The notes beneath the pieces were generated by a model. It was not told the origin of the DNA and made no database searches. It was given only the letters and a program-made list of their open reading frames with translations. The position numbers were made by a program, and so were the translations under genes. This document shows positions 34,086-53,791 of a stretch of 64,000 nt of DNA, piece by piece (within the stretch, counting starts at the first letter, position 1; every line of letters starts with the position of its first letter). Source of the stretch: Chryseobacterium gleum (lineage in GTDB: Bacteria > Bacteroidota > Bacteroidia > Flavobacteriales_D > Sanyastnellaceae); contig CAMCHP010000006.1 in NCBI GenBank assembly GCA_945874695.1, positions 1-64,000 of the forward strand, written 5' to 3'.

Positions 34086-34652
34086 ATGTCTGACGAAGAA
34101 CTCAACGAACTGATCCGCAACTGCATTCGTGGTAATGCAAGCGCTCAGGAACGTGTGTATCGTCAGTTGTACGGAACCATGATGGCAGTTTGTTTGCGTT
34201 ACACACGTGATCGAGAGCAAGCTCAAGATATCTTACAAGATGGCTTCATCAAGGTTTTTGCGAACATGAGTCGCTTTAATTTTGAAGGTTCTTTTGAAGG
34301 CTGGGTGAGAAGGATTATGGTAAATACAGCCATAGACTACTTCCGGAAGAAAAAGACTGATTTTATGCTTTTGGGAGAAAATAGTTCGGTTGAAGATTTT
34401 GCCGAAGTTGTTGATGAGGAGGATGAGGAAGAAGGAATGTATGATTTTACACCGGAAGACATTGTGAAAGCAATGCAGTCATTGACACCGGCTTATCGTA
34501 CGATTTTTAACCTCTATGTTTTTGAAAATCTCGCACACCACGAGATTGCAGAACGCCTAGGAATCAGCACTGGAACGTCGAAATCGAACTATGCAAAGGC
34601 GAAGAGAAACCTTAGAAAAATACTGATTAACGACTTGAAAGATCGCGAATGA
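34086..34652 (+). CDS. ECF-type RNA polymerase sigma factor
   Basis: A 188-aa sigma-70 family factor. Region 2 includes RYTRDREQAQDILQDGFIKVF and FEGWVRRIMVNTAIDYFRK, region 4 includes SLTPAYRTIFNLYVFENLAHHEIAERLGIS followed by a basic C-terminus (KSNYAKAKRNLRKIL). An acidic linker (EVVDEEDEEEG) joins them. It should redirect RNA polymerase to a specific promoter set. Its last codons overlap the next gene by four nt (ATGA), the usual arrangement for a sigma factor and its membrane regulator. No sigma or regulator gene other than that neighbour is seen, and the next genes are giant T9SS cargo proteins. Confidence 0.95.
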   Translation: MSDEELNELIRNCIRGNASAQERVYRQLYGTMMAVCLRYTRDREQAQDILQDGFIKVFANMSRFNFEGSFEGWVRRIMVNTAIDYFRKKKTDFMLLGENSSVEDFAEVVDEEDEEEGMYDFTPEDIVKAMQSLTPAYRTIFNLYVFENLAHHEIAERLGISTGTSKSNYAKAKRNLRKILINDLKDRE

Positions 34653-35980
34653 GTAATCAGCTAGACGGCTTCGAAAAGGGGCTAAAAAGTGCGTTTGATT
34701 CATATCAAGCGCCTTATGAAAATGGAAGTTGGGAGAGACTTCAAGCGAGCATGTCTGCTGCAGAGGGGGGGAAAGGCCTTTCGGCTGGCAACGCGTTGGG
34801 GGTACTTGCCGTAGTAGTAGCCGCATCTGCGGGTCTGCTGTTGGGTTGGTACTTTTTCAGCAGCGACAATGCCATCGGGGCGAAACAAGCATCACTGAAT
34901 ACCGAAGTGCTTGAACGCGCTTCATTTGATGCGGCACAACGGAAAGGTGAATTGGTTGGTATTTCTGACCCCACTTATGCCGATGCAGCTTCAGCTAGCG
35001 ATGCTGAATCACCAACTGATTTCTTTGAGCAAGGTAAACAGTCAGTTGCCGAGCGCTTGCGTGATGCGGCGAACAGCCAAACGCAAACCGCGCAAACTTC
35101 AGGTGTTGCTGATGCTCAGCCACAGCCTTCAAGTTTATCGGAAGAACCCGTTTTTGTAAAAGGACGATCCAAAGCGGCCGCGTTTGAGCTTCCTGCAGTG
35201 GGCTCCATGCCAGCTATTCCTATTTCAATCAGCACGCGTGAAGGTTGTGAGGGCACTTCGGTGCACTTCAACATCAATACAACAGGAATCGACGGAAACT
35301 ACCTCTGGAACTTTGGTGATGGCACCTTCTCGAATCAGGCGAATCCTTCGCACACTTATACGAAGGCTGGTGTGTACGATGTAACGCTTTCTGTAACGAG
35401 CAATAAAGACGGTGTGATTCGAACCAAAATGATGGATCAAATCATCGTCATCAATCCGAATCCAGATGCAGACTTCGAATGGGAGTTCGTTGATGCAATC
35501 GGTGAGGTTCCTGTGGTACGTTTCAATAACCGTTCGCAGCGTGCCAATCAGGCACAATGGGTAATTGTTGATTCAGTAACTGAAGAGATTAACCCTGTAA
35601 TGCCGATCGAAGCACGCGGAGCGCATTGGGTTGAGTTGATGGTAAGCAATGAGTTTGGATGTGCCAATGCTAAAAAGAAATTGATCTCCGTTAATGAAGA
35701 TTACGCATTGATGGCACCAACCCGCTTCTCACCAAATGGTGACGGCGTGTTTGATACCTTTATGCCCCGCGCTTTAATGACTGGTGAGCATCGCTTTACA
35801 TTCATTGTGTCGCAAGGAGATGTAATTATTTACGAAACACAAGACCCGTCAAAGTCTTGGAGTGGATTATTACCCGATGGAACAATGGCTCAGCCAGGTG
35901 ATACATTCACTTGGACTGCCGTGGTTTACAAACCAAAAGGTGACAAGTTCTACAGTGGGTCTGTAGCCGTGGTACGCTAA
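34649..35980 (+). CDS. Membrane-anchored PKD protein with anti-sigma-like N-terminus and T9SS type B-like C-terminal domain
   Basis: A 443-aa protein, probably the regulator of the sigma factor it overlaps. There is no cleavable signal peptide. Residues 1-48 are cytoplasmic, with a short segment (FDSYQAPYENGSWERLQASM) like the 'pro..vWe.I...L' region at the start of many Bacteroidota membrane proteins encoded beside ECF sigma factors. A single helix spans about 49-70. A low-complexity linker follows, then a PKD domain (about 193-275, with LWNFGDGTFSNQANPSHTY), an Ig-like segment, and from about residue 355 a domain with FSPNGDGVFDTF, SWSG and the terminal VVR that matches the T9SS type B sorting domain in outline. 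The C-terminal domain on an inner-membrane anchored protein is unusual. Function is inferred. Confidence 0.8.
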   Translation: MSNQLDGFEKGLKSAFDSYQAPYENGSWERLQASMSAAEGGKGLSAGNALGVLAVVVAASAGLLLGWYFFSSDNAIGAKQASLNTEVLERASFDAAQRKGELVGISDPTYADAASASDAESPTDFFEQGKQSVAERLRDAANSQTQTAQTSGVADAQPQPSSLSEEPVFVKGRSKAAAFELPAVGSMPAIPISISTREGCEGTSVHFNINTTGIDGNYLWNFGDGTFSNQANPSHTYTKAGVYDVTLSVTSNKDGVIRTKMMDQIIVINPNPDADFEWEFVDAIGEVPVVRFNNRSQRANQAQWVIVDSVTEEINPVMPIEARGAHWVELMVSNEFGCANAKKKLISVNEDYALMAPTRFSPNGDGVFDTFMPRALMTGEHRFTFIVSQGDVIIYETQDPSKSWSGLLPDGTMAQPGDTFTWTAVVYKPKGDKFYSGSVAVVR

Positions 35981-53600: not shown

Positions 53601-53791
53601 TTGAGATGTGGATTTATAACCGTTGGGGCAAAGAGATTTTCTACACCAATGACATCAATGAGCCTTGGCTGGGCGAAGTGAATGGAGGCGATCACTTCGG
53701 GCAAGACGAAGTGTACCAGTGGGTTGTTAAGGCCGTTGGAATTCGAAATACTTCTTTCGAACGCAGCGGATTCGTGGTCTTGGTGCGCTGA
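50693..53791 (+). CDS. Giant secreted 'choice-of-anchor L' protein with T9SS type B sorting domain (5)
   Basis: About 1,032 aa. A signal peptide (to GYSQ) is followed by the choice-of-anchor L domain (about 22-220: [42 protein letters not shown]), a Calx-beta-like segment ([18 protein letters not shown]), five or six PKD/Ig-like repeats each holding a G.G.Y.Y.W strand, a final PKD domain ([20 protein letters not shown]) and the type B domain ([28 protein letters not shown], ending VLVR). ATG 50693 begins the signal peptide; upstream in-frame codons are possible but unlikely. It follows the fourth giant gene by 76 nt and ends 5 nt from the convergent exonuclease III gene, closing the cluster. 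Confidence 0.87.
   Translation: [1032 protein letters not shown]

Follow-up and report, generated by a model that had tools for sequence, protein, structure and literature searches.

An ECF sigma factor paired with a putative anti-sigma factor that ends in a type IX secretion signal-like domain, encoded beside giant T9SS cargo genes

Introduction

The locus described here raises the question of how Bacteroidota adjust the output of giant surface proteins to what their type IX secretion system (T9SS) can export. To our knowledge, little is known outside Porphyromonas about how cargo production is matched to export capacity. The window analyzed was a stretch of 64,000 nt, taken from the forward strand of contig CAMCHP010000006.1 of assembly GCA_945874695.1. 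A preliminary description of this DNA had pointed to a sigma factor gene and a membrane-protein gene at the head of a cluster of T9SS cargo genes, and had proposed that the pair may switch on the adjacent cargo. The pair provides a specific and conserved candidate sensor, together with a promoter sequence, a predicted target list and culturable hosts.

Results

Gene content of the locus

The open reading frames and strands of the sigma gene and the membrane-protein gene, which overlap by ATGA (34649-34652), were as described previously, and so was the strong terminator behind them (Table 1). The five large open reading frames that follow all end in a CHU_C domain as claimed, but the cluster comprises six genes in total. 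Position 43476, which had been taken for the start of a large cargo gene, instead starts a gene for a protein of 140 aa without a match in a Pfam search, and the third cargo gene begins within the stop codon region of this small gene. The start proposed for the second cargo gene is a GTG codon, while the longest open reading frame begins at 39639.

A profile search of the draft genome to which the window belongs gave 46 CHU_C matches and SprA, and a T9SS is therefore present. GldM was missing in a search of this genome with TIGR03517 despite the presence of SprA, probably due to a gap in the draft. One CHU_C match (C16:28490-28696 of the same genome) fell in a short reading frame interrupted by a stop codon, possibly the remnant of a decayed cargo gene. 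A single-domain response regulator is encoded at 33568-33963, directly upstream of the sigma operon; this position is kept in only part of the family.

Table 1. Features of the locus, with positions in the window.
Feature	Position	Strand	Basis
ECF promoter of sigma operon, GGCAACC-N15-CGTC	34044..34069	+	Same motif 5' of sigma gene in 47/47 loci; strict match here
ECF sigma factor gene, 188 aa	34086..34652	+	Pfam/NCBIfam; profile matches solved ECF sigma factors, e.g. SigW
Putative anti-sigma factor gene, 443 aa	34649..35980	+	ATGA overlap with sigma gene; AF2 model; N-terminal motif
PKD domain, aa 190-260	35216..35428	+	Pfam PKD_4, 5.6e-18
T9SS type B CTD-like domain without RWG, aa 356-443	35714..35977	+	CHU_C in orthologs; structural matches; RWG count
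Intrinsic terminator 3' of sigma/putative anti-sigma operon	36007..36038	+	14-bp stem, T tail; -22.3 kcal/mol, z -6.5
TAGTTTTG box, likely promoter of cargo 1	36042..36049	+	Fits flavobacterial sigma-A box TAnnTTTG
Type B T9SS cargo 1	36076..39579	+	CHU_C, 4.5e-13
Type B T9SS cargo 2, GTG as start codon (39639 in the longest ORF)	39675..43403	+	CHU_C, 7e-19
Variant ECF promoter GGCAACC-N16-AGTC, 5' of small gene/cargo 3 operon	43408..43434	+	10/11 consensus positions
Small conserved exported protein, 140 aa	43476..43898	+	Several loci have an ortholog among their cargo genes
Type B T9SS cargo 3, start overlaps stop of small gene	43895..47614	+	CHU_C, 3.8e-14
Type B T9SS cargo 4	47944..50616	+	CHU_C, 8e-19
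Variant ECF promoter GGCAACT-N16-CGTC, 5' of cargo 5	50620..50646	+	10/11 consensus positions, intergenic
Type B T9SS cargo 5 (choice-of-anchor L, Calx-beta, PKD)	50693..53791	+	Pfam/NCBIfam

Conservation of the sigma factor and its partner

The product of 34086-34652 belongs to the ECF sigma factors (Sigma70_r2, 4e-16; r4_2, 9e-13; TIGR02937, 1e-30) and contains Sigma70 regions 2 and 4 only, as is typical of this class. Full-length orthologs of the 443-aa membrane protein were found by BLAST in most of 100 related genomes. Among 48 loci with a recognized ortholog, the sigma gene adjoined it in all but two, in which the sigma gene was not called. The preliminary description would have been refuted had the pair never been near T9SS genes elsewhere, and this check came out in its favor. 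A giant gene on the same strand, whole or cut by the sequence end, came next in about 45 of the 48 loci, which, like the sequences behind the motif counts given below, are related and not independent. The exceptions were one contig end (L063) and two further loci (L065 and L068). As the pairing recurs in essentially all orthologous loci, mostly with the giant gene next to it, the arrangement is more than chance. The partner gene lies directly downstream of the sigma gene, overlapping or abutting it, which is the position expected of an anti-sigma factor gene, and the order sigma gene, then partner gene was found in every family.

According to the full-length BLAST results, families f8, f9 and f13 seemed to lack the pair; this was ruled out by a search with the sigma factor, which recovered the pair in all three. 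Family f9 appears to be Crocinitomicaceae, as judged from a scan of named genomes with the sigma alignment. Named, culturable hosts of the pair include Fluviicola chungangensis MAH-3, Taishania pollutisoli CZZ-1 and Brumimicrobium spp., and a class-wide profile search detected it in other orders of the class as well. Four entries titled Glaciecola, Polynucleobacter, Chitinophaga or Chryseobacterium (L323, CP034120.1; L285; L291; L279) contained sigma loci resembling those of Crocinitomicaceae, and their titles look wrong.

Architecture of the membrane partner

In an AF2 model calculated with 45 orthologs, the 443-aa protein begins with two helices (aa 7-18 and 27-39), followed by a transmembrane helix (aa 49-71). 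A disordered linker leads to beta domains, which are predicted well and start near residue 190. Hydrophobicity and the model agreed on the predicted topology of a single transmembrane helix with a short N-terminal segment and a periplasmic C-terminal part, the latter consisting of two PKD/Ig domains and a domain resembling the C-terminal domains (CTDs) of T9SS cargo. This matches the single-pass protein with PKD and type B-like C-terminus of the preliminary description: the PKD match was clear (6e-18), and the CHU_C match, weak in the window protein, was confirmed via the orthologs. The N-terminal motif FE..ik..l..hE.PY....W is conserved among the partners and duplicated in a few of them. The cytoplasmic part of the window protein and its orthologs matched no known anti-sigma family in Pfam or NCBIfam, which counts against the explanation preferred below. 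The membrane protein is best read as a putative anti-sigma factor. A published anti-sigma factor with a T9SS CTD was not found in the literature searched.

Comparison of the CTD-like domain with cargo signals

The type B signature of the window protein was weak (CHU_C, 13.5 bits; TIGR04131, E 0.0019), and it was stronger in many orthologs: CHU_C was detected in 30 of 45, with a best value of 2e-16, and TIGR04131 in 24 of 45. Judging by sequence, the C-terminal domain of the partner is a relative of the type B secretion signals. The features typical of the cargo encoded at the same loci had been lost, however. RWG was absent from all 49 CTD-like domains of the partners and present in 69 of 73 cargo CTDs, a terminal Lys or Arg occurred in 16 of 49 partners compared with 71 of 73 cargo proteins, and the Asn of DGxND was mostly missing from the partners. 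An N-terminal Sec signal peptide free of a preceding cytoplasmic segment, as expected of a type B substrate, was not found either, the transmembrane helix of the partner starting at about residue 49. One study reports that secretion requires every one of the conserved type B motifs (PMC12618676), and RWG is presumably one of them. The CTD-like domain of the partner is probably signal-like and not exported.

Structural comparison gave moderate matches. Residues 349-443 of the model aligned with the CTD of PorZ with a Z score of 8.1. PorZ was also the top Foldseek match of the CTD-like domain alone, albeit a weak one (E 0.004), and in a second comparison the CTDs of NucA, PorZ and PorU were three of the top seven matches (Z 7.1-7.4). 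Streptococcal Fn3-type domains equaled or exceeded the T9SS CTDs in score (Z 8.5), and the CHU_C fold is similar to that of FlgD Ig domains as well. Both the moderate scores (Z 7-8), which Fn3-type domains reach or surpass, and the likeness to FlgD were counted against the preferred explanation.

The membrane topology and the CTD-like end would also fit a T9SS substrate that keeps an uncleaved N-terminal anchor and is co-transcribed with the sigma gene by happenstance, and CHU_C does exceed the cut-off in some members. Such a substrate would not be expected to have about 48 residues in front of the transmembrane helix that carry a conserved FE...W motif, in some members twice. Together with the loss of RWG and of most terminal basic residues and with the gene order kept in every family, this makes an anchored substrate very improbable.

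PKD domains often mediate binding, and PKD_4 was found in 45 of 45 members of the main orthologous set. The two genes could therefore encode a real sigma/anti-sigma pair in which the PKD/Ig domains sense a ligand in the envelope or outside the cell, the signal is something other than T9SS status, and the CTD-like domain is a leftover beta-sandwich, as its lost export motifs would allow. This is rather unlikely, since members of family f8 and several paralogs lack PKD and have kept the CTD-like domain as their sole periplasmic domain, and since T9SS genes abound in the predicted regulon.

Promoter motif and predicted regulon

The sequence GGCAACC-N14/15-CGT was invariably present upstream of the sigma gene (47 of 47 regions) and was also seen in other orders of the class. 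All 47 upstream sequences thus carry a predicted promoter for the sigma gene itself with the ECF-type elements AAC (-35) and CGT (-10), and the sigma factor of the window would read this motif. Together with the position of the pair, the motif bore out the earlier view that the pair is a regulator tied to T9SS cargo, and the regulator is a conserved one.

Sites located away from sigma genes were collected from 30 genomes; the set with the sigma sites removed is referred to as unbiased. The exact motif in this set was no commoner genome-wide than the reversed control pattern, and only its placement was unusual. Motif counts per genome were consequently dropped as evidence, the reversed pattern being equally frequent, and placement was tested instead. 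Of the 38 unbiased sites, 29 were intergenic, whereas the reversed pattern had 2 of its 41 sites in such positions (p 3e-11); 23 of the 38 lay within 300 bp of an ORF start (p 8e-8 versus the reversed pattern). Type B genes made up 5 of these 23 (p about 8e-5 at a background of 2%, the genomes being related).

Motif sites preceded type B cargo genes in L177, L179, L204, L209, L212, L218 and L223, type A cargo genes in L214, L181 and L198, and a PorP/SprF gene in L202 and probably L222. A TPR protein was another of the recurring downstream genes. A DUF5684-type membrane protein was encoded downstream of the motif in 12 genomes, namely that of the window (contig C69, L216) and 11 others, and no other predicted target of the sigma promoter is shared as widely. 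In the literature searched, DUF5684 is not mentioned.

A conserved pair of motifs at an OmpR-type regulator gene was split into its two copies, one lying inside the coding sequence of the regulator and the other being intergenic. A strict promoter of the sigma type occurs just downstream of an OmpR-type response regulator gene at C30:32419-32443 of the window's own genome (L085, L215) and also in L089, L094, L095 and L104. No ORF follows in most genomes, and the transcript is possibly a small RNA.

Promoters of the adjacent cargo genes

Upstream of cargo 1 no ECF sigma site was found, only the housekeeping-type box TAGTTTTG. A similar box occupied a similar position in the close relatives L031-L037, directly behind the terminator; TAnnTTTG is the sigma-A box of Flavobacterium psychrophilum (PMC9723704). 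Two other units of the window have sites with N16 spacers (Table 1), and a site of the type GCAAC-N15/16-NGTC precedes the small gene in L031-034, L037, L040, L041 and L071. When all loci were counted together, a site with at least 9 of 11 consensus positions was present at 24 of 84 cluster genes (permuted motifs: mean 2.1, maximum 8), and GCAAC-N16/17-NGTC was present upstream of 26 of 84 cluster genes versus 13 of 349 other genes. The adjacent cargo genes of family f4 have N15 sites. In several families the cargo gene lies only 14-31 bp behind the putative anti-sigma gene and likely forms one operon with it.

A second ECF sigma gene with an overlapping partner gene was noticed in the same genome (C12:1067-2682, L424; relatives in L146-L148, L150 and L151). 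This paralogous sigma factor (C12:1067-1570) is 43% identical to that of the window and has an N16 promoter, and its relatives elsewhere have promoters of the form GCAACT-N16-NGTC. Its partner has 364 aa, a transmembrane helix, PKD and CHU_C, and lacks RWG. Sites were found at 7 of 37 other type B genes of this genome, a number that most permuted motifs did not reach (mean 1.7, maximum 7 of 200); an N16 spacer is present in nearly all of these sites.

The paralogous sigma factor may read the N16 sites, among them those before 43476-47614 and 50693 of the window. In its original form, the proposal that the sigma factor switches on the adjacent cargo was hence not supported, as cargo 1 has no sigma site and the two units with N16 sites are perhaps targets of the paralog. 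The alternative states that the adjacent cargo of the window is not read by the window sigma factor, cargo 1 being transcribed by the housekeeping sigma factor and the N16 units by the paralog. The paralog promoters, the N16 spacers of all the best cargo sites in this genome and the box in front of cargo 1 argue for it, while the N15 sites in family f4, the closely spaced cargo genes that are likely part of the putative anti-sigma operon, and the strict N14/15 sites in front of other cargo argue against it. Its chances fall just short of even. It concerns the targets and is compatible with the explanation given below; the partner of the paralog also ends in a CTD-like domain.

Discussion

The best explanation, to which we assign a probability of about one half as a whole, is that the products of 34086 and 34649 are, respectively, an ECF sigma factor under its own control and a membrane-bound anti-sigma factor with a CTD-like domain that reports on the secretion route. 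The two helices of the short cytoplasmic N-terminus would hold the sigma factor. The periplasmic end would descend from the secretion signal of type B T9SS cargo and would have lost the motifs typical of exported proteins. It could be engaged by a CTD-binding component, such as a PorP/SprF-type shuttle or the translocon, or compete with real cargo for one. Altered engagement would then free the sigma factor, which would raise expression of its own operon and of a regulon including T9SS cargo, shuttles and the DUF5684 membrane protein.

More tentatively, and with chances somewhat below even, the partners may form a class-wide anti-sigma family of at least two paralogous branches, in which a non-exportable copy of a T9SS signal senses the occupancy of shuttle or translocon and sets the expression of cargo and shuttles. 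The pair may in this way match cargo production to export capacity. If true, a secretion signal would have been turned into a sensor, a simple coupling of export to transcription.

The pair shares with other Bacteroidota sigma/transmembrane-partner pairs the overlapping sigma gene, the short cytoplasmic segment, the transmembrane helix and the periplasmic part; it differs in that the constant periplasmic part is the CTD-like domain. This domain is homologous to the type B cargo signals described by CHU_C and TIGR04131 (PMC12618676, PMC9143113). Unlike such cargo, the partner has no usual N-terminal signal peptide, has lost RWG and mostly the terminal basic residue, and has its CTD-like domain joined to a cytoplasmic segment via a transmembrane helix.

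The analogy to PorA, PorXY and SigP of Porphyromonas gingivalis, which had been drawn in the preliminary description, holds in so far as the control of T9SS genes by an ECF sigma factor takes its input from a protein with a T9SS CTD. It is a loose one, since PorA, which is not known outside Porphyromonas, is exported to the cell surface (PMC7712824), and since the target motif proposed for SigP differs from GGCAACC-CGTC (PMC4800418). For the latter reason, the idea that the window sigma factor is SigP itself was dropped. PorA is proposed to act via a two-component system, whereas the CTD-like domain described here is part of the putative anti-sigma factor.

In F. psychrophilum, SM6 promoters precede gldN, porU and the sigma/anti-sigma pair THC0290_1774/1773 (PMC9723704). 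An ECF-type -10 box CGT in front of both a sigma/anti-sigma pair and T9SS genes is thus common to both cases, although the listed SM6 targets are machinery genes and not cargo. By analogy, the SM6 promoters and their pair may be the same kind of system as the pair in the window.
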